A stretch of 24,756 nt of DNA. Source: a virus. Of the stretch, positions 12,992 through 23,156 are shown one piece after another (the first letter of the stretch is position 1; the number at the start of each line of letters is the position of its first letter). The stretch lies in IMG/VR virus record IMGVR_UViG_3300002760_000320, positions 15,863 through 40,618 of that record, one strand, 5' to 3'. The translations under genes were made by a program, and so were the position numbers. Below the pieces are notes generated by a model. That model saw nothing but the letters and a program-made list of their open reading frames with translations, was not told the DNA's origin and ran no database searches.

Positions 12992-14203
12992 TTAGCTAGC
13001 GATTTTCTGTTTTACAATCGCTTCGGGCAGGATCACCTGACCACCTACGCGACGGCGAGCGATGTAACGCACGTTGCCGGTAGTAGCCTGAGTGAACGGA
13101 TCACGAAGGACTGCGAGCGCGACACGATCAACGATCATGTAACCACGGCTAAAGTCACCGAACGCAACAGGGTAAGCGCCAGCGCCCACGTCTGCCATGT
13201 CTGGTGCCTCAACATAGGCATATCCGAGGATAGTGTTCGGAACACCATTCTCTAGGCTCATCCCAGCTTGGAAGACGTACTGACCGGCAGTGTCTTTCAG
13301 CTTACGGATTGCTGCAAGTGTTGTGCGGTTAAAGACGAAGCGACCATTACGGCCATACTGCGACTTGACACTATGAACCAGCGTCAGGAGACCATCAGCT
13401 GTCAAAGCAGATGCCGCACCAGAATTGACTTCGGATACGTCACTGTTTGTCATGAAGCCTTCAGGCTTGCCAACAGAGTTACCTGTGCAAAATGCTGCGC
13501 CTTCCGCTTTCGCGAACTGTTCAGCGAACTCTGACTGCATTTCCGCTTCGAGATCGAAGACAGAATCCTCTAGGTCTTGTTCAGAAATGTCGACCAGAGC
13601 GTAATGCTCATGCGTCGGGATTTCTTCCATACCCACAGCGTAGCCAGTTGTTTCTGCACGAGTGCCGGATTCAGCAACCCATGCCGCCGCAAACTGACCA
13701 GTACGCTTCGGCATTTGAACCGAACGCTGACCTGTTGTGCGAACACGAGCGATAGAGCGGATTGGTGAAATCTCGGTAACCGACTTGATGATTTCACGAA
13801 CATACTCAGGGGGTGCCAAGTAGCCACCAGTCGAATCGTTAGAAACGGTCAGTGCCTTTTTCTCGGCTGGATCAAGAGCCTCAAGGCCCTTACGAAGGAA
13901 CGAATCCCAAGCCATCAGGCTTTCGTCGATCTTCTTGGACTCAACACCAGTTTGAGGACGGCGAAGCATTGTTTCAATGCGGTCCATCTGCTCTTTCTGG
14001 TTTTCCTGCTGCTGTTTTTGCAGGGTGAGCGATTGGTTCACGTTTTCCAGCGAATCCATCTTGGCTTCAATTGCCGCGATTTTGTCATCCAGAATCGGAT
14101 CACTTACGCCCTTTTCAATGTTCTCTAGTTTCTGGTCATAGCTTTTTTTGAACTCGTCAAAAGCATTGCCCATCTCAGAGATTGCTGTCTTGATGTCATC
14201 CAT
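12992..14203 (-). CDS. Major capsid protein, HK97 fold with N-terminal delta/scaffold domain
   Basis: This 403-residue protein begins MDDIKTAISEMGNAFDEFKK. Residues about 1-95 are a charged coiled coil (KLENIEKGV, QQQENQKEQMDRIETMLRR) typical of the cleavable delta/scaffold domain. Residues about 100-403 have HK97-fold capsid motifs: LTVSNDSTGGYLAPPEYV near residue 122, SPIRSIARVRTT, EEIPTHEHYALVDISEQDLED and a C-terminal RYIARRRVGGQVILPEA. It corresponds to GTA g5. A GAGGAGC ribosome site precedes the ATG. The protease gene immediately upstream would mature it. Confidence 0.95.
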   Translation of the reverse strand: MDDIKTAISEMGNAFDEFKKSYDQKLENIEKGVSDPILDDKIAAIEAKMDSLENVNQSLTLQKQQQENQKEQMDRIETMLRRPQTGVESKKIDESLMAWDSFLRKGLEALDPAEKKALTVSNDSTGGYLAPPEYVREIIKSVTEISPIRSIARVRTTGQRSVQMPKRTGQFAAAWVAESGTRAETTGYAVGMEEIPTHEHYALVDISEQDLEDSVFDLEAEMQSEFAEQFAKAEGAAFCTGNSVGKPEGFMTNSDVSEVNSGAASALTADGLLTLVHSVKSQYGRNGRFVFNRTTLAAIRKLKDTAGQYVFQAGMSLENGVPNTILGYAYVEAPDMADVGAGAYPVAFGDFSRGYMIVDRVALAVLRDPFTQATTGNVRYIARRRVGGQVILPEAIVKQKIAS

Positions 14204-14215
14204 CGTTATAGCTCC

Positions 14216-15139
14216 TCAATTTTTAAGGGATTTGGTTAGTGATAAAATGGCGCTTGCCACTGAGTCATCCACGCCAGCGTCACGCTGTGAAAACGTCTCA
14301 TGAACGGCTTTCGCCGCCCTCTTCGCTTCTGAACGGGACAGATGAAAAACATCACGCAGTCCATTTTCCCATTCTCTGATGGTCATTTCTGCGCCCTTAA
14401 CCGACCGAACCTTAGCTTTAGGATTCATCGGGAAAGTAACTAACGAAATCTCCATTAGATCCACTTCCTTGATCATACGGCGCTTACGTCGCGCATCGTA
14501 AGACTGCCCTTTGGGGGCAACACGGAAACCAATTGACAGGCCGTCTAGTGCGCCCATCTTCATTAACTCATACGCCTCAGCGCCTAATTGAGTCTTCAGC
14601 GCCAGCTTGCCTCGGACCTTTAGACCGCGCTCGTCTTCTTCGATTGACTCAAATACGCCGATAGGCATGTCTGTCTTATGCTGATATAGCAATTTGACCG
14701 CTTTCGGTCCTGTCTTGGCTAGGCTCTTTTTGAAGGCGCCATTAAGGATAACGTCATTGCCAAGGTCAGTGTTGTTGAAGACTGATCCATAACCCTCGAA
14801 GGTTCCAGCCTCTTCGTCGTCCATATCCAGAGCCTTAAGCTCAAGAGTGCAATCAACCGACTCCTCTGACTTGCTGTCCTCGTCCGACTCTTCGTTGCCT
14901 GCCTCTTCAACAACTTCTTCATCTGGCTCCGACTTTCCGAATTCAACAATGAAGGAATCCTCGGTCTCGGTAACAGCCCTGATGTGCTTGGCTTCTTCCG
15001 CGTCTGCCGCCTTGTTCAAGCCTGACAGGCTTTCGGATAGCCGATCCTCGGCGTTCTTGTAATTCTTCATGTATCTGCCCGTTTGCCTTCGACTGATCTG
15101 ATCGTTCGTCTCATCTGAGCGGGATCTCGGAAGCGACAT
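14216..15139 (-). CDS. Prohead protease (HK97 U35 / GTA g4-like) with acidic N-terminal extension
   Basis: With ATG 15139, 307 residues begin MSLPRSRSDETN. I prefer this over the GTG 6 bases upstream because AGGAAG lies at the right distance; a second ATG at 15070 (MKNYKN) lacks an obvious site. Residues about 55-100 are very acidic (PDEEVVEEAGNEESDEDSKS). The protease part starts near residue 103 with LELKALDMDDEEAGTFEGYG and FNNTDLGNDVI, and continues through VKLLYQHKTDMPIGV (His of the catalytic set) and MKMGALDGLSIGF (Ser). The family is clear: it matures the capsid by removing delta domains. It opens the capsid-tail operon after a promoter-like region. Confidence 0.92.
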   Translation of the reverse strand: MSLPRSRSDETNDQISRRQTGRYMKNYKNAEDRLSESLSGLNKAADAEEAKHIRAVTETEDSFIVEFGKSEPDEEVVEEAGNEESDEDSKSEESVDCTLELKALDMDDEEAGTFEGYGSVFNNTDLGNDVILNGAFKKSLAKTGPKAVKLLYQHKTDMPIGVFESIEEDERGLKVRGKLALKTQLGAEAYELMKMGALDGLSIGFRVAPKGQSYDARRKRRMIKEVDLMEISLVTFPMNPKAKVRSVKGAEMTIREWENGLRDVFHLSRSEAKRAAKAVHETFSQRDAGVDDSVASAILSLTKSLKN

Positions 15140-15166
15140 CTGCACTTCCTGCTAGTCCCTGTTTAC

Positions 15167-15767: not shown

Positions 15768-15963
15768 CCTGATTTTCCTCGTGCAAGTTTAACAAGACGG
15801 TGAAAAACTGCTGAATAGATAAATCAAACGGGTATTTACCGCTCTCAATTTCATACGCAGCGTGAAACCTCTCATGTATGTCGCGGTTAAGACTTACTGC
15901 TCTTTGACCAGTAGCTCCAGTCCCTTGACCGGCTGGCCGTCCTCTACGTTTCTTCTCTGTCAA
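15748..15963 (-). CDS. Putative ribbon-helix-helix-like DNA-binding protein
   Basis: With TTG 15963, 71 residues begin MTEKKRRGRPAGQGTGATG. I chose this over GTG 15990 because AGGAGAGTAAA lies directly before the TTG and the region between overlaps the ribosome site. A basic arm (KKRRGRPAGQGTG) is followed by QRAVSLNRDIHERFHAAYEI, which fits the strand plus first helix of an RHH repressor (the Val-Ser-Leu-x-x-x-x strand). It is first in the operon from the central promoter, so autoregulation is plausible. Assignment is moderate to low. Confidence 0.5.
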   Translation of the reverse strand: MTEKKRRGRPAGQGTGATGQRAVSLNRDIHERFHAAYEIESGKYPFDLSIQQFFTVLLNLHEENQDDTSIG

Positions 15964-16164: not shown

Positions 16165-16602
16165 ATGCGCTTTGAATACTCAGACGGTGGCCGTCAGGCC
16201 GCAGGACGAAAAGGACGCACGGCAGATTGTGTTTGCCGCGCAATTTGTAACGCAACGGGGCGCCCGTATATGGAAGTATACAACGCCTTGGCGCAAGGCA
16301 ACGCAACGCAGCGCAAGGGCAAGCATGACAAGGGCGAGCGCAGACGAACCGCGTCACGCGGGATTGATGTCAAGCGCAAGTGGTTCAAGGACTACATGCA
16401 CAGCTTGGGCTTTAGTTGGACGCCGACAATGAAAATTGGCCAAGGCTGCAAGGTCCACCTGCGAGAGGGCGAATTGCCAAAGGGTTCATTGGTCGTGAAC
16501 GTCTCACGTCACTTCACTTGCGTGCGGGACGGCGTGTTGCTTGACACTTACGACTGTAGCCGCGACGGCACACGCTGCGTTTATGGCTACTGGTCACTAT
16601 AA
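16165..16602 (+). CDS. Putative papain-like cysteine peptidase, phage type
   Basis: This 145-residue protein begins MRFEYSDGGRQAAGRKGR. It has a Cys in TADCVCRAICNATGRPY near residue 22-24, a His in VNVSRHFTCVRDG near residue 115 and an Asp in LLDTYDCSRDGTRCVYGY near residue 128-132. The order Cys, His, Asp with an N-terminal Cys-bearing helix and C-terminal strands fits a papain-like (C39/C70-like) fold. The phrase SWTPTMKIGQGCKVHLREGE recalls conserved proteins of phages and plasmids with the same layout. The family is recognised from memory, the peptidase reading is inference. An AGAGGAGAAG ribosome site precedes the ATG. It leads a plus-strand operon that runs opposite to the late genes. 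Confidence 0.55.
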   Translation: MRFEYSDGGRQAAGRKGRTADCVCRAICNATGRPYMEVYNALAQGNATQRKGKHDKGERRRTASRGIDVKRKWFKDYMHSLGFSWTPTMKIGQGCKVHLREGELPKGSLVVNVSRHFTCVRDGVLLDTYDCSRDGTRCVYGYWSL

Positions 16603-16611
16603 CTACTAACA

Positions 16612-16631
16612 GGGGCGGCTTCGGTCGCCCC
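16612..16631 (+). other. UUCG-tetraloop hairpin between plus-strand genes
   Basis: GGGGCGGC and GTCGCCCC pair as eight base pairs (one G-T) around a TTCG loop. No T-run follows; instead the ACAGGAGAGA ribosome site of the next gene comes shortly after. This argues against a terminator and for an mRNA-stability or processing element. Confidence 0.7.
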
Positions 16632-16649
16632 ATACAGGAGAGAGAGAAA

Positions 16650-16916
16650 ATGAGACTTTACAATTTCGTTGACGTTCGGAATGCGCGTGGCGCATGGTTC
16701 ACCAGTGAAGCAAAGGCGAGGCAGGAAGCAAAATCTGCCGAATCTGACTGGTGGATTATATATGCCGTCGACTTCGCGGAACTCAGCAAACAACAGCTCT
16801 TGCTGAACGTCCTAAACGAAGAAAGAGACGTCGAAACTAGAGTTATAATCGCTCAGAGCGAAGACTTCCTAGTCGCCTCCGCGACAATGGGCGGTATTCG
16901 CAGGAACCACAATTAA
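16650..16916 (+). CDS. Small protein of the plus-strand island, unknown
   Basis: This 88-residue protein begins MRLYNFVDVRNARGAWFTSE. It has a mixed alpha/beta composition with a helical run (AKARQEAKSAES) and an acidic middle. A strong ACAGGAGAGAGAGAAA ribosome site lies before the ATG, and a hairpin precedes it. I do not recognise a family; coding is supported by the ribosome site and lack of overlap. Confidence 0.6.
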   Translation: MRLYNFVDVRNARGAWFTSEAKARQEAKSAESDWWIIYAVDFAELSKQQLLLNVLNEERDVETRVIIAQSEDFLVASATMGGIRRNHN

Positions 16917-16920
16917 AACA

Positions 16921-16934
16921 GGGCGAACCGGCCC
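16921..16934 (+). other. Second intergenic hairpin with repeated spacer layout
   Basis: GGGC (16921-16924) and GCCC (16931-16934) form a short stem, and CAGGAGAGAAAG follows. The whole spacer, AACAGGG ... ACAGGAGAGA, repeats the layout of the spacer at 16609-16649. It is not followed by T's. Confidence 0.4.
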
Positions 16935-16953
16935 GACATAACAGGAGAGAAAG

Positions 16954-17136
16954 ATGACATATTACTCAGTGCGTACAGAACGCAAAAAGGATATCAGAAT
17001 ATACCACAGACTGACCAAGGATGAAGTCAAGCAGGTCATCCATAGATACGGCTTCGACGTCCATATGGTCGTTAACTGGCCCTGTCTTACAGAACTTGAC
17101 GAGACAGCCTATAGGGAAATCTTCTTGGACTCCTAG
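16954..17136 (+). CDS. Small protein of the plus-strand island, unknown
   Basis: This 60-residue protein begins MTYYSVRTERKKDIRIYHRL. It is charged and could form a small strand-helix domain. ACAGGAGAGAAAG precedes the ATG. No family recognised. The gene follows the same spacer layout as its upstream neighbour. Confidence 0.55.
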   Translation: MTYYSVRTERKKDIRIYHRLTKDEVKQVIHRYGFDVHMVVNWPCLTELDETAYREIFLDS

Positions 17137-17168
17137 TCACCGATGGTCATAAAGTGTAAAATGCCAAG

Positions 17169-17396
17169 ATGTATGTTATACGGCTAGATGATGTCGGCTT
17201 CGCCATAATCAGGGGGCATGGCTCCTTGAAAGAGGCGAGGCTTGACTTCATGAGTGCCGCTCAACACATAATCGAACCGGAAGTCTTCCCAATGTGGAAA
17301 CGGGTTGTCATCTGCGAGAGTTACCGTCGGGACTTTCGAGGCGACGTTCACCCGATAGGCATACACAGCCAGCTTCATTGCTACGTCAATGATTGA
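17169..17396 (+). CDS. Small protein of the plus-strand island, unknown
   Basis: This 75-residue protein begins MYVIRLDDVGFAIIRGHGSL. The sequence is mixed, with a Trp/Arg-rich middle (FPMWKRVVICESYRRDFRGD). No strong ribosome site is visible before ATG 17169, so the start is less certain. It ends ten bases before the next plus gene. No family recognised. Confidence 0.45.
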   Translation: MYVIRLDDVGFAIIRGHGSLKEARLDFMSAAQHIIEPEVFPMWKRVVICESYRRDFRGDVHPIGIHSQLHCYVND

Positions 17397-17405
17397 GGGA
17401 ATAAG

Positions 17406-17588
17406 ATGGAAGACTTCGCGCAGACATGGTGGCCTCAGCTAGTCGCCTTCGTATCCCTGATTTTCTGGACAGCGCAACGTCACGCCGCGCAGGATGAAAA
17501 GACGGCGCAGCTAGAAAAGAAAGTCGAGAATCTGTTCGTCCTTTGGAACAAGCACATGGACTGGCTTCTCAATAACAAGAAAGATTAA
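17406..17588 (+). CDS. Small membrane-anchored coiled-coil protein
   Basis: This 60-residue protein begins MEDFAQTWWPQLVAFVSLIF. Residues about 8-22 form one hydrophobic segment (WPQLVAFVSLIFWTA), and residues about 27-55 an amphipathic helix with heptad-like spacing (DEKTAQLEKKVENLF). This is the layout of small holin-associated or DUF2730-type phage proteins. A GAGGGAATAAG ribosome site precedes the ATG. Its stop overlaps the stop of the convergent gene at 17585. Function is unknown. Confidence 0.6.
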   Translation: MEDFAQTWWPQLVAFVSLIFWTAQRHAAQDEKTAQLEKKVENLFVLWNKHMDWLLNNKKD

Positions 17589-17767
17589 ACCCGCTGGATA
17601 AACGGAACGCCAGCCTCAAAAGACCTTCGAGCGACCGCATCCTCTTCGGTCTCGTTTGGGTACTCGTCAAATAACGTCTGGTATTGCGCCGCGTCATCAT
17701 CTGTCCACTCTTCCAAGGACAGAAGCGCCGAAATGTCGGCCCATATTTCTTTACGATATCTCGGCAT
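17585..17767 (-). CDS. Small acidic protein, paralogue B
   Basis: This 60-residue protein begins MPRYRKEIWADISALLSLEE. It is acidic after residue 15. It aligns without gaps to paralogue A at 17784-17966; by eye 33 of 60 positions are identical, including IWADI, LLSL, EWT, LFDEYP and ETxEDA. A strong AAGGAGGATTAGCA site precedes ATG 17767. No family recognised. It is the last gene of this minus-strand run. Confidence 0.7.
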   Translation of the reverse strand: MPRYRKEIWADISALLSLEEWTDDDAAQYQTLFDEYPNETEEDAVARRSFEAGVPFIQRV

Positions 17768-17783: not shown

Positions 17784-17966
17784 TTAAGCCCTATCAATCA
17801 GGTCTGCCGCCTCATCGAATGTCTGCTTTGTCAGCGCGTCCTCTATCGTCTCGTCAGGGTACTCATCAAACAGTATTTCGTAGTCGGCTTCGTCCATCTC
17901 CGTCCACTCGTCGAGGGATAGCAGCTTTTTGATATCTGCCCAGATGTCCGACCTACTTCTAGCCAT
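17784..17966 (-). CDS. Small acidic protein, paralogue A
   Basis: This 60-residue protein begins MARSRSDIWADIKKLLSLDE. ATG 17966 is preferred: an upstream frame to 18170 exists but is an antisense-like overlap of the next gene, whereas this start gives exactly the same length as paralogue B. It overlaps the stop of the gene at 17959-18189. Function is unknown; the pair look like a recent tandem duplication with divergence. Confidence 0.7.
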   Translation of the reverse strand: MARSRSDIWADIKKLLSLDEWTEMDEADYEILFDEYPDETIEDALTKQTFDEAADLIDRA

Positions 17967-18189
17967 CATTCGTCCAGTGGTCAGAGGGGTAGGGGATACC
18001 CCCGACTTTTCGGGCGATCTTTTCATAATCGTCCCTATAACGCTTCGGCATTTCGCCCACAGTGAAGAATTCCTCAAGGCTCTGCATAAGCCCTCTAGCA
18101 TAAGCAAAATCTTTCCCATCTCTGAACTCTCCCATATTTTCCGCGAACCAGCGGGACGAATACGGGTCAAAAGCCAACCTCTTCTTCAT
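17959..18189 (-). CDS. Small protein downstream of the MuF gene, unknown
   Basis: This 76-residue protein begins MKKRLAFDPYSSRWFAENMG. It has a helical run (FAYARGLMQSLEEFF) and several Tyr/Arg pairs. A GGAGAGATC ribosome site precedes ATG 18189, 12 bases after the MuF stop. It overlaps the next gene by eight bases. No family recognised. Confidence 0.6.
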   Translation of the reverse strand: MKKRLAFDPYSSRWFAENMGEFRDGKDFAYARGLMQSLEEFFTVGEMPKRYRDDYEKIARKVGGIPYPSDHWTNDG

Positions 18190-18201: not shown

Positions 18202-19713
18202 CTACTCCTCAAACACCATAGCCGTTCTGTTCAACAGCACAAGGTAATCAGCGTCAGTTGACCGGTTGAACTCCTTAATAATCGCGTCATAACCTCTGAA
18301 CGCCGCGTAATGCCCCTCGTCCGTCAAAATCTTGTAGAGAGCCGTATACTTCGGAGATCCACGCTTCCAGCTCTCATCCCCGACTAGCGGTCGGGTAGCC
18401 CTTCTTGCCCTTTTCTCCAGTTCGTCAAAATCAATCTCCATCTGACGGGTAATCTTGTCGTATGTGATAGTCTTAGCGTCAGGCGCTAACTTGAAGGGTG
18501 TAACTCCACTTAGATCGCTACCAGCGTAAGCCCTTGCAGTCAGCTTCGCGTCCTTAACCTGTTCAGTGGTGCCACGCGCCATCGCTGCATATGTCCCATT
18601 TCCATATATCCCTCTTCCGAGGAAGAACTTTCCAGTCTTCAGAGCGTCTATTCGTTCCTTTGCGCTCACCGTTGCGCTGCCTTCAACACCCCGCCACATC
18701 TCGTCGCTTCCCAGTGCGTCGTATTCCTTCTTCGAGACGATTTTAGGCTTTCCAGCATAGCCCTGCCGAGCCGTGATATACTTTAATGGGTCAGCGGCAA
18801 TATCTAATAGCTCGCCTGCCTCCAGATCATTGAGCGCGTACATTGGGTCTATATCTGTTCCATACACCCTCTCGAACTCATTCTCTTTCGGCAGCTCGTC
18901 CTCAGTGTCGACATAAAGGATCACGCAGCGACAGTTGACGACATTAGATGGACCTCCTGCCGTGTCACCGACATAGCTCATCTCTGTGCCGTTCGGCATT
19001 TTGAACGTCTCGTCCATCTCCACAGTAACGCCGTTCATAGCCGCATGAGCGCCCCTTGTCCGAGCGTCTGACGTTGCTACCCACTGCTTCTTCATCAGCA
19101 CGCCATAGGACGAAGCGACCTGCCGGTGGTAATTGTCGTGCGCTGCTCCCGTTGCCGAATGCGTTTCTGTTCGTGCAATCGTTGTCGCACGAGAGCGATT
19201 TATTCGACTGTACTTTGCGCTGATCTCCCGCGAAATCTGAGGTAGCGTTAAGCCCTCCTCCCGCAAGGAATTGATATCCCCAACAATAGATCGCCCCATC
19301 CGCTGGCTTATGTTCGTTATGTAGCTCTGCCGCCCTTGCAGGTACGAACTGATGTATGAGTCATACTCCGCATTGTTGCCAAACCCAAAACCAAAGGATA
19401 CCTCGCCCTTTGTGTTCAAATCCTTGTAACGGTCGTTGTTGTAATCATAAACGGTCCTGAACGTCCTCCGAATACGATCATTGAGAACCCCTGCCATCTC
19501 CTCAGCGAGAGGAACTGCTGTGACGTCAAGATCAGGGATAAGCTCCGCCTTCAGAGCGTCCGTGACAGCCTTAAGCCGCCGGTTGAACATTCGGACAAGG
19601 CTTTTCTCCAAACCTCGCTCTAGCCCAGCCCTAAGCCGCGCCTGCTCCTTAGCGTAACGTCGCGCCGAGACCTTGCCCTGACGAAACGTAAAGAACCGCT
19701 TGAGCGACCGCAT
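18202..19713 (-). CDS. MuF-type minor head protein with C-terminal ADP-ribosyltransferase-like domain (candidate)
   Basis: This 503-residue protein begins MRSLKRFFTFRQGKVSARRY. Residues about 175-268 carry the SPP1 gp7 / MuF signatures: RATTIARTETHSATGAAHDN, KKQWVATSDARTRGAHAAMN and a NVVNCRCVILY strand. Residues about 290-503 do not belong to MuF. There a MWRGVEG motif (Arg at 341), a GRGIYGNGTYAAM turn (366-378) and a GYDAI to DADYLVLLNRTAMVF end resemble ADP-ribosyltransferase toxins linked to phage head proteins. ART residues beyond the Arg cannot be assigned with certainty. MuF proteins are packed in the virion and some are ejected, so a delivered enzyme is plausible. An AAGGAAGTAGGG site precedes the ATG. 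Confidence 0.8.
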   Translation of the reverse strand: MRSLKRFFTFRQGKVSARRYAKEQARLRAGLERGLEKSLVRMFNRRLKAVTDALKAELIPDLDVTAVPLAEEMAGVLNDRIRRTFRTVYDYNNDRYKDLNTKGEVSFGFGFGNNAEYDSYISSYLQGRQSYITNISQRMGRSIVGDINSLREEGLTLPQISREISAKYSRINRSRATTIARTETHSATGAAHDNYHRQVASSYGVLMKKQWVATSDARTRGAHAAMNGVTVEMDETFKMPNGTEMSYVGDTAGGPSNVVNCRCVILYVDTEDELPKENEFERVYGTDIDPMYALNDLEAGELLDIAADPLKYITARQGYAGKPKIVSKKEYDALGSDEMWRGVEGSATVSAKERIDALKTGKFFLGRGIYGNGTYAAMARGTTEQVKDAKLTARAYAGSDLSGVTPFKLAPDAKTITYDKITRQMEIDFDELEKRARRATRPLVGDESWKRGSPKYTALYKILTDEGHYAAFRGYDAIIKEFNRSTDADYLVLLNRTAMVFEE

Positions 19714-19715
19714 CC

Positions 19716-21860
19716 CTACTTCCTTGTCGAAAGCGGGTGATCCTTAGGCAATAGGTCGGTATCATGCTTGCCGCCCTGAAACCTTCCAGTCCTGAGCGCG
19801 AACAACAGGCTGTTCACCCGTGCATACGCCCACTGGTCCGGCCCTGTTACATTCGGCCTGACGCTTTGAGGATTAGTCCTATAAGCGCCCACGCCTCGCC
19901 GGAATGAGGCTATCAGCATTCTCAGCGTCGCCCGCTTGCTTCGGTCGTCACCCACCTTGTCGTTGTGATCAGATACTTTGCCTCGCAGCGTTTCCTTGAT
20001 GCGCTCAGAAACCTCACCGCTCTCCTCGGCCTTTGTGTGAACGTCAAGCAATAGAGCCTCAATGTCGTGCGTGTCGTCCCCGTCTGGCTCGCCGAGATCG
20101 CCTTTGCGCTCCTCCAGCTTCTTGGTCATCTCAAGGATAACGTCCTTCATACCCTGCTCACCGAGCCGAGGATTAATAGCGCCCCACTTAATCAGTGCAA
20201 CAATGCCCCCGATATTGGACAGGTTAGGCGACAGGTCGCCACTTACAAACTGGTTGCCGTCAACGACCGTATGACGAGCGCACCACGCCTCTCTTTCCTT
20301 GATCCATGCCAAGACAGCCGGTGATTCCGAGCCGTCCCGCGCATTACCCCAAAGCCGGTATGCGTCATTGCCTCTTATATTGCCTCCAGCCTTCCATATC
20401 TTCCGACCATTGGCGCTACGATCACCTGCCATGACCTCCGCGAAATTGTAATCAAACTGCGGATAGTTCGAATTGCGAAGACTGATCTTTTTGTTGTCTC
20501 CGCGACGCGGGAAGTTCGTGATCTCCTCCGCCTTCTCGTCATCATACAACTTGAGATCGTCGTCGCTGACCATCTCCTCGTCCTCATCTGGCCCGCTGTC
20601 TGGCTCGTCCTGAGCCGTGGAACCCAAGGGAAACAGGTTAGCTGCCACCAGAAGCTCATCAGCACCGTCGACAGGACTGAGACCGATCATTTCACGCGCC
20701 TCGTTACGTGTCATGATCCCTGCACCTACGGCACCCAGCACGTTCTGATAGATCATTCTGCGACGCTCTGACAGAGCCGGTATCCGGTCGACGTCATATT
20801 CGAACGTCAAATCCTCGTTGAACATCGGAACCAGCCATTCGTTAATGTCCGATTCCACCTTTCGCAGGTAAGGAATGATCGTCTCCTCGTAGAGGGCGAG
20901 CCTTGCCTCTGCGACGTTTGAATACGTCTGGCTGTCAGGAACGCCCACCAGCTGACTAGGCACCCCAAAACACATCGCGATGTCAGTTGCGGCCATGTGC
21001 TTCAGGTTAATGAAGTCCATGTCCTTCGGAGACAGGCCCATCTCCTTCCAGTCAAAATCGCCCTCCAACAACATTGGACGACCAGCGTTCTTGCTCCCAG
21101 TGAACCTTTGGTTCAAGTCACTCATTAGCTGTTGACGCTGACCGTCTGACAACTGGACCGCGTATCCGGCGTCGTCTTTCGGTCGGAAGACAACAGCTCC
21201 CGAAGGTCTCGCTCCGTTTTCCAGAAGATTGATGTTGTGCTTGGTGGCGCTGTTATGCTGGTCGACCTCCATAGCCGCCGCCGTCAAGGGCGAACAACCG
21301 TAGAAGTCGTCCATAGGATGCCATAGCTTGACCTGCTTTACGTCACTGAAGCCTGTTTCCTGATCAACCTCATACGTCGCCCGCACTCGCCCAGCCACAC
21401 GGTACTCATAGGATGCAGGAAAAACACCTGAACCGCCCCTGATCTCAACCCTGTCAGGTCTGAGCAAATGCAGCTCTCTAGGTATATTCATGCCGTTTGA
21501 AACGCGCATCATGTATGAGTTACCGCCCAGCATAAGGAAGCCGAACAGCGCGTTGAAGAATTCACTATAGGACTGCTGCGGATTCGGACGATTTAGAAGA
21601 GAGATCAGAGGATGACTTTCGAGAACGTCGCCCGTCCCTGTCTTGATACGAAACGGTACAGATGAAGCGCCCTTTGAAATCTCGTTGACGCATCTATAGA
21701 CGATTGCGTTCTTGAGATACCCTTCAACCGCCAGATCGCCATATGACATTTTTCTGTCGTTTGCGGCTCCAACGCCGAAATAGCCCACCATGGAACCAGT
21801 ATTCTTGATTTCTACAGTCTGGCTTCGCTGCTGCCCGAAAAGTCTGTCCAGTATTCCCAT
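19716..21860 (-). CDS. HK97-type portal protein with about 255-residue C-terminal extension
   Basis: This 714-residue protein begins MGILDRLFGQQRSQTVEIKN. Residues about 1-400 match the HK97 portal (NAIVYRCVNEISKGASSVPF at 51, ELHLLRPDRVEI near 129, FGVPSQLVGVPDSQTYSN near 298). Usual HK97-like portals are about 400-450 residues. After an acidic linker (DSGPDEDEEMVSDDD near 421) comes an extra segment. Residues 459-585 contain WKAGGNIRGNDAYRLWGN and IGGIVALIKWGAIN. Residues about 645-714 contain GVGAYRTNPQSVRPNV, QWAYARVNSLLFALRTG and HDTDLLPKDHPLST. I recall similar modules in other phage head proteins but cannot name them. The start follows the TerL stop directly. Confidence 0.9.
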   Translation of the reverse strand: MGILDRLFGQQRSQTVEIKNTGSMVGYFGVGAANDRKMSYGDLAVEGYLKNAIVYRCVNEISKGASSVPFRIKTGTGDVLESHPLISLLNRPNPQQSYSEFFNALFGFLMLGGNSYMMRVSNGMNIPRELHLLRPDRVEIRGGSGVFPASYEYRVAGRVRATYEVDQETGFSDVKQVKLWHPMDDFYGCSPLTAAAMEVDQHNSATKHNINLLENGARPSGAVVFRPKDDAGYAVQLSDGQRQQLMSDLNQRFTGSKNAGRPMLLEGDFDWKEMGLSPKDMDFINLKHMAATDIAMCFGVPSQLVGVPDSQTYSNVAEARLALYEETIIPYLRKVESDINEWLVPMFNEDLTFEYDVDRIPALSERRRMIYQNVLGAVGAGIMTRNEAREMIGLSPVDGADELLVAANLFPLGSTAQDEPDSGPDEDEEMVSDDDLKLYDDEKAEEITNFPRRGDNKKISLRNSNYPQFDYNFAEVMAGDRSANGRKIWKAGGNIRGNDAYRLWGNARDGSESPAVLAWIKEREAWCARHTVVDGNQFVSGDLSPNLSNIGGIVALIKWGAINPRLGEQGMKDVILEMTKKLEERKGDLGEPDGDDTHDIEALLLDVHTKAEESGEVSERIKETLRGKVSDHNDKVGDDRSKRATLRMLIASFRRGVGAYRTNPQSVRPNVTGPDQWAYARVNSLLFALRTGRFQGGKHDTDLLPKDHPLSTRK

Positions 21861-23156
21861 CTAGTTAATCCTCCAAGCGACTTCGCCGCGTGACTTGTTC
21901 AATTCAGAAAGCCCCCAAACCAGCGCATCTAGGCGGTCAGGAGATGGTTTCGGGCGAACACCTGTATAGGTGCACATCTGGCTTTCCAAATCAGAGAACA
22001 CCCCAACATGATGCACTCTGCCCTGCTCATATAGAGCCGCGATTGGCTCTGCCCTCACTAGCTTCCCTCTAGTCGCATGGACCGAAGTATATCTCACTTC
22101 AGGGTCAATCGTCCGAATAAGGCGCTCCACAAGATCGCCACCGTTATTAACCTCAGCAACCACTCTATCCGCTTCCCACTTGTGAAACAAGTCCGAGGCC
22201 ATTCGGCCCCATTGCTCCGGCGAGTATTTGCCTGATGCGTCTTCTAGCACATAAAAGGCTCCCTCACCATCCTTACCCACCACCACTATACCTGTCTCGT
22301 CCGATCCTTCTCCGCTAGTTACTGCCGGATCAATCGCCACCAGCACGTTTTGCAGGTCTGGAAAATCCTTGCATCGCGCACGGTCAATCATGGACGAATT
22401 CCATAAGGCGCCGTCCATGTTATTGATGACCTCAGCGTAAAGCTCCTGACGTCCGAGCGTCGTTCCTTCGTACTTGTCTTTCAACATCTGAAGGGTTGAC
22501 GCGGCTAGATTGGCCTCGTTCTCAAACGTGGTTCCGGTCGTCACCAGCGTATCATTTCGCCCCATTAGCTGCTGTATCAGAGGCGTCGGTCTAGGTGTTG
22601 TCGTAATGACGCACTGAGGCTTGTCACCGAGCCGCAAGGCGAACATAAGCTGGTCGAAGGCGTCAGGGTAGCGCCAAGCTGCAAGCTCGTCACACCACGC
22701 CCGATGAAACTGAGGACCACGAAGCCTGTCAGGTTCCGTCGCACTGAAGCCCATGATTTTTGAGCCGTTATACAGTCTGATTTCACTGGCTGAGGAATTG
22801 AAGCCCTGCCCTCGTCCTTCCAGCAAGCACTCCGGTGGCATCGTCTTGAGGATTCCAGAAACCCCTTGGAAGGCGACACGCCGCAAGTCACCGAACGTCG
22901 GCGTCACCACCGCGACCTGAACTTCTGGATTTCTCAATGCGTACAGCATGGCGTCTGTCGCGCCGGTTCGTGTCTTTCCCCAGCCACGGCCCGCAAGGAT
23001 TAACCAGATATGCCAGTCACCCGTAGGGGTAAGCTGATTCTTTCGAGCCGTTGCCAGCCAGTCAGTGTACAGAGTCGCCGAACTCTTGTGACCGGCTTGC
23101 TGCAAGCTCGTCCAGTTGGTCCATAATTTCGTTGAAGGCGTCGGGGTTGCTGACAT
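21861..23156 (-). CDS. terL: Large terminase subunit
   Basis: This 431-residue protein has an ATPase Walker A LAGRGWGKTRTG near residue 54, Walker B as HRAWCDELAAW near residue 151, and C-terminal nuclease residues in VAIDPAVTSGEGSDETG (near 271) and DRLDALVWG (near 411). It powers DNA packaging and cuts the concatemer, docking on the portal encoded next. The N-terminal start at ATG 23156 overlaps the upstream gene by 95 bases, more than usual; a TTG start inside the overlap is also possible, so the exact N-terminus is uncertain. The stop abuts the portal ATG. Confidence 0.95.
   Translation of the reverse strand: MSATPTPSTKLWTNWTSLQQAGHKSSATLYTDWLATARKNQLTPTGDWHIWLILAGRGWGKTRTGATDAMLYALRNPEVQVAVVTPTFGDLRRVAFQGVSGILKTMPPECLLEGRGQGFNSSASEIRLYNGSKIMGFSATEPDRLRGPQFHRAWCDELAAWRYPDAFDQLMFALRLGDKPQCVITTTPRPTPLIQQLMGRNDTLVTTGTTFENEANLAASTLQMLKDKYEGTTLGRQELYAEVINNMDGALWNSSMIDRARCKDFPDLQNVLVAIDPAVTSGEGSDETGIVVVGKDGEGAFYVLEDASGKYSPEQWGRMASDLFHKWEADRVVAEVNNGGDLVERLIRTIDPEVRYTSVHATRGKLVRAEPIAALYEQGRVHHVGVFSDLESQMCTYTGVRPKPSPDRLDALVWGLSELNKSRGEVAWRIN

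Follow-up and report, generated by a model that had tools for sequence, protein, structure and literature searches.

The window analysed here, 24,756 nucleotides of a 40.6-kb virus record (IMG/VR IMGVR_UViG_3300002760_000320, positions 15,863 to 40,618), contains head genes in the order terL-portal-MuF-S78 protease-HK97 capsid, with several ORFs lying between MuF and the protease. The features that concern us are the following.

21861..23156, minus strand: terminase large subunit, the gene directly upstream of the portal (PF03237/PF17289)
19716..21860, minus strand: portal ORF with C-terminal modules, 714 aa, uninterrupted; same fusion in loci L002-L020, L185, L204-L220 and others
20685..21704, minus strand: HK97-family portal domain, residues 53-392 (PF04860 and TIGR01537)
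20520..20636, minus strand: acidic linker, residues 409-447, pI 4.05
20097..20519, minus strand: mod1, residues ~448-588, basic and predicted all-helical (alignments and AlphaFold), pI 9.5
20013..20096, minus strand: second linker, residues 589-616, acidic and predicted disordered (pI 4.1 for residues 586-616; low pLDDT)
19719..20012, minus strand: mod2, residues 617-714, basic and predicted helical, of the DUF5824 kind by homology (weak PF19141 match), pI 10.9
18202..19713, minus strand: MuF minor head protein, the next gene (PF04233, 63.4 bits, residues 153-265)
14216..15145, minus strand: S78 prohead protease, downstream (PF04586, 125 bits)
12992..14203, minus strand: HK97-fold major capsid protein (PF05065, 263 bits, residues 126-400)

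Layout and conservation of the portal ORF

The N-terminal part of the ORF is an HK97-family portal. PF04860 (Phage_portal) matches residues 53-392 with 267.5 bits against a cut-off of 39.1 (E 2e-79), and TIGR01537 matches residues 46-399 with 211.6 bits against a cut-off of 112.05, covering nearly the whole model. In this, and in its gene order, the protein resembles other members of the family, from which it differs by two modules that lengthen its C-terminus by ~300 residues; bare relatives of the same core measure 446-473 aa. A sequence-only reading of this DNA had described a 714-residue portal carrying two additional C-terminal modules behind an acidic linker, and we find just this arrangement in one ORF. 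The four motifs on which it drew lie at residues 489-506, 550-563, 676-692 and 699-712. It had ended the extension at 20490; the extension is real, but begins at residues ~409-448, upstream of that position. MuF is a separate ORF in the window, and the portal ORF contains no MuF domain.

Only a single copy of the extension exists in the 40.6-kb record. A scan of viral contigs recovered relatives of the extension in 189 of them. Complete portal-mod1-mod2 ORFs were found at no fewer than 15 loci, in addition to L185, a contig binned as a putative Flavobacteriales MAG that encodes terL, a 717-aa portal and MuF. The same ORF thus recurs in many marine viral contigs that are independent of one another and come from different samples, which rules out that the fusion is an artefact of assembly joining two genes, a concern raised in the earlier reading.

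That reading had also taken the modules to be conserved and distinct from portal domains, and both points were borne out. No portal-family match extends beyond residue 399. Compared with portal-fused relatives, the portal core is 67-83% identical, mod1 66-81% and mod2 73-84%, whilst both linkers drop to 19-62% (38-62% for residues 409-447). Since module identity equals that of the core, the modules appear to be under selection about as strong as the portal itself. Synonymous sites are saturated and dN/dS is therefore not usable, so this argument rests on identity.

Contents of the portal tail among close relatives

Using the portal core alone as query, we retrieved the 80 most similar portals (core identity 67-83%) and recorded what follows the core. 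The tail holds mod1 in 26 and, in 46, a different domain that we nickname ARHE and that corresponds to phrog_2859, a family with no annotated function; in 6 of these 46 the portal ORF runs off the end of its contig. A further 6 portals are bare (L221, L222, L228, L241, L242 and L246) and 2 are truncated before the tail. The variants comprise mod1-mod2, mod1 alone (without mod2 in the portal tail in L196-L198 and L213), ARHE with or without mod2, ARHE with Hva1_TUDOR, and nothing. In L203, L205, L208, L215, L217 and L219 the portal carries ARHE and mod2 is the next, separate ORF. The tail of L223 has ARHE without mod2, followed by Hva1_TUDOR (35.7 bits, cut-off 24.1), and in L014-L016 the position of the second linker is occupied by a DUF3721-like insert. 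mod1 and ARHE occupy an equivalent position in the portal slot and never occur there together. The acidic tail is kept in bare-portal relatives too, the linker sequence itself being variable.

A tree built from the portal cores of 46 loci requires no fewer than 7 changes of slot content and 6 of mod2 presence. Over the 4.4 kb that lead to the slot, L222 (bare) and L223 (ARHE with Hva1_TUDOR) have a DNA identity of 80.6%; for L228 and L229 the figure is 94.8% downstream of the slot and 75.6% upstream. These pairs indicate that recombination has acted around the slot. Two records with bare portals, G001 (52.9 kb) and G002 (34.1 kb), gave no match to ARHE, mod1 or mod2 anywhere, in searches whose controls, two module-bearing records, returned the expected ARHE matches and included no positive control for mod1 or mod2. 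The existence of bare relatives shows that the modules are not required for making the portal. The anatomy of the fusion and the swapping of tail contents are firmly established by these comparisons.

The portal is commonly regarded as an invariant machine. That tail modules differ, are split off or are absent among close relatives shows its tail to be an evolvable site, and the pairs L222/L223 and L228/L229 are near-matched natural pairs with which to ask what these widespread, unexplained domains do.

The extension had been thought rare of its kind, which did not hold up: close relatives carry these or other modules, and both E217 gp19 and portal-MuF fusions are known. The E217 portal, gp19, has 765 aa and a C-terminal barrel that projects into the head (PMC10329688). 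Like the P22 barrel, it resembles the window portal in the long C-terminal stretch that follows the core within the head, a location that is probable for the window portal. These barrels, however, continue the portal helix, whereas the window portal has globular domains behind a disordered acidic linker, and the comparison of topology is therefore one of analogy only. Other fusions of head proteins are portal-MuF, MuF-VIP2 and the protease-scaffold-capsid protein of Microbacterium phages (PMC7302621), and in the haloarchaeal viruses HRTV-4 and HRTV-28 ARHE lies inside a portal-MuF protein. The window differs from portal-MuF-type fusions in that its MuF is separate and what has been added is a pair of small modules instead of another head protein. 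In the literature searched we found no portal tail described as a slot where small domains are exchanged, and no papers on portal-protease tail fusions.

Identity of the modules and their other positions

Sequence and profile searches gave no Pfam, NCBIfam or PDB-sequence match for mod1, and one weak match in PHROG (E 0.018) to a family without annotated function; nor did we find mod1 described as a domain family in the literature searched. Against PDB sequence profiles neither module produced anything better than E 0.47. The window's mod2 scores 14.3 bits against PF19141 (DUF5824), under the gathering cut-off of 25. Its close homologues in L030 (30.7 bits) and L027 (26.3 bits) pass that cut-off, and mod2 is therefore placed by homology with DUF5824, a Pfam family with no described function, which no paper names in the literature searched. 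The strongest PF19141 match is elsewhere, on a T4-like cytidylyltransferase fusion in Melnitz-3 (67.2 bits; L086:6837-8786), whereas in the window the domain sits on a portal.

Structure prediction, a check proposed in the sequence-only reading, yielded two helical domains separated by a disordered linker (AlphaFold with 38 aligned rows; mean pLDDT 80, pTM 0.51). pLDDT is ~80-95 over most of mod1 and below 50 in the second linker (model residues 142-169). Searching the model with Foldseek found no similar solved structure in the PDB (best E 1.6), and in BFVD found uncharacterised phage proteins together with ones named XkdF, prohead protease and ChaB. Invariant polar residues are R78, E79, R84, H85, D89, N104, K113, K127 and D128 in mod1 (A2 numbering) and R39, R52, R65, D84, D86 and H92 in mod2 (A5 numbering); many other invariant positions are Gly, Trp or Pro.

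mod1 may be a remote homologue of ARHE, judging from sequence comparison. The two are alike in an RH...GxxAxxxWG pattern and in the spacing of their last four helices (50-63, 69-85, 106-113 and 122-143 in mod1; 32-42, 49-61, 81-88 and 91-111 in ARHE). With hhalign, mod1 matched a diverse ARHE set at P 8e-4 and 25% probability, with 1 of 149 column shuffles scoring equally high; narrow ARHE alignments gave nothing (P 0.25).

Outside the portal tail the modules were found in several other arrangements, counted here in similarity-selected samples, so that the numbers are not frequencies. In 19 complete loci they make up the N-terminal part of the prohead protease, and in others that of protease-capsid polyproteins (mod1-mod2 in 8; ARHE with or without mod2 in 53 complete loci). 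They also lie between portal and MuF within single ORFs of 1.18-1.26 kaa, and in L030 they are free-standing, two genes beyond a portal. Among the isolates that carry them are phages of Salinibacter, Roseobacter, Synechococcus and Vibrio, and the haloarchaeal viruses HRTV-4, HRTV-28 and HATV-3. Virion mass spectra exist for the Salinibacter phages of PMC11631230, and Roseobacter phage CRP-831 is in culture. The HATV-3 portal comes from a different family (PF06381), which implies that the association of modules with portals arose more than once. The 974-aa protein deposited as 'major capsid protein' of Roseobacter phage CRP-831 (L084:4473-7394) is an ARHE-mod2-protease-capsid polyprotein.

Some copies lie elsewhere. 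In PaBG (L190:2977-3309) a stand-alone ARHE adjoins a topoisomerase and not head genes, and in HTVC202P (L085:7983-8219) a mod2-like ORF stands alone, apart from head genes. Given these two occurrences and the cytidylyltransferase of Melnitz-3, a strictly head-specific role of the modules is not certain. We also observed inserts between modules and protease: one with a weak AAA_33 P-loop match (L033:1246-3306), and a cupredoxin-like segment, 'YYYCVNHxGMGG', in L045:2358-5444 and L137:1628-4630.

Candidate roles of the modules

In proheads, four elements point inwards: the C-terminus of the portal, MuF, the S78 protease and the N-terminal portion of HK97-type capsids. Movement of the modules among portal, MuF, protease and capsid positions is best explained if they are head-interior domains, and we consider their display inside the head quite probable. 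The reading that we favour, in which we place about half of our confidence, is that they are optional, exchangeable accessory modules of the head interior, carried on the disordered acidic tail of an ordinary HK97-type portal. That tail serves as a slot for small helical modules, here mod1 and the DUF5824-type mod2, which would be displayed inside the head, in 12 copies when on the portal. In that position they may bind packaged DNA or the prohead core (protease or MuF), and trimming by the S78 protease may occur at the acidic linkers. That the modules are basic and their linkers acidic hints at contact with DNA or another core protein. Versions from halophiles are acidic, with pI down to 4.3, and ARHE is mildly basic, so that charge alone is no proof of nucleic-acid binding; a DNA- or core-binding role is plausible, somewhat short of probable.

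The main rival is that the modules are virion cargo: the prohead protease would free them from the portal, and they would be ejected with the DNA and swapped to match hosts or defences, in the manner of the T4 internal proteins and the toxin tails of MuF proteins. Their being optional, exchangeable and attached by linkers, beside a MuF gene with a variable C-terminus, would suit cargo, as would recombination around the slot of the kind seen between L228 and L229. Fast-diversifying effectors, however, would not be expected to come as a few strongly conserved module types across unrelated viruses, archaeal ones included; a fusion to the capsid polyprotein would mean hundreds of copies per prohead; and the solved-fold search found no toxin-like or enzyme fold. 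We consider cargo unlikely on balance. A similarly low probability attaches to the possibility that the modules are handles for assembly, which would nucleate the prohead by recruiting or activating its protease (or MuF) at the portal vertex. It would fit such a role that the same modules are found at the C-terminus of the portal or at the N-terminus of the protease, but bare-portal relatives lack modules and nevertheless possess every gene of the set. Also in its favour, the presence of mod2 agrees in 42 of 46 loci with that of a DUF3721 module on protease or portal; this amounts to ~3.3 independent pairs (sign test p ~0.25), with the window itself among the four exceptions, and we regard the coupling as a lead and not as a finding.

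The sequence-only reading had suggested scaffold or enzyme at this vertex. An essential scaffold is unlikely, because bare portals exist and because the 403-aa capsid ORF has its own N-terminal part, ~125 residues that precede the Phage_capsid domain and presumably resemble those of HK97-type delta-domain capsids. It is very improbable that the modules represent a new enzyme family at the unique vertex: the invariant polar residues of mod1 and mod2 would fit catalysis, but the searches of Pfam, NCBIfam, PDB sequences and PDB folds returned DUF5824 and nothing beyond it, no enzyme family among them, and the many invariant Gly, Trp and Pro positions fit a structural role.

A wider form of the head-interior reading that we favour would make the portal tail a docking slot at the unique vertex of bacterial and archaeal tailed viruses, with mod1/ARHE, DUF5824, DUF3721 and Hva1_TUDOR loaded into the head, processed by the protease and passed on together with the genome; recombination would exchange them on a portal that is itself retained. 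We think this generalisation rather doubtful. The portal slot is in any case a defined 12-copy position, presumably facing the lumen, and useful as such for structural work.

The neighbouring head genes show further variation. The window protease lacks the DUF3721 module found there in most mod2-bearing relatives, and a PF12518 search of the whole record gave no match, and none came from its controls either. The N-terminal ~45 residues of this protease look like a decayed 'MPIPKP..RCM..AVC' module, whose cysteines are kept in relatives. MuF ORFs in relatives range from ~270 to 635 aa, the C-terminal half being variable. In the window the C-terminal ~240 residues of MuF (18202-18920, minus strand) have an ADP-ribosyltransferase-like look (GRGIYGNGTYAA); the last 174 residues had no Pfam or PDB match. 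Just downstream of MuF lie two small acidic ORFs (17588-17767 and 17787-17972, minus strand) that are paralogous, 54% identical with E 3e-23, and could possibly encode proteins that partner the MuF C-terminus or give immunity to it. The head operon is broken up between MuF and the protease by small ORFs running the other way (16165-17588, plus strand).
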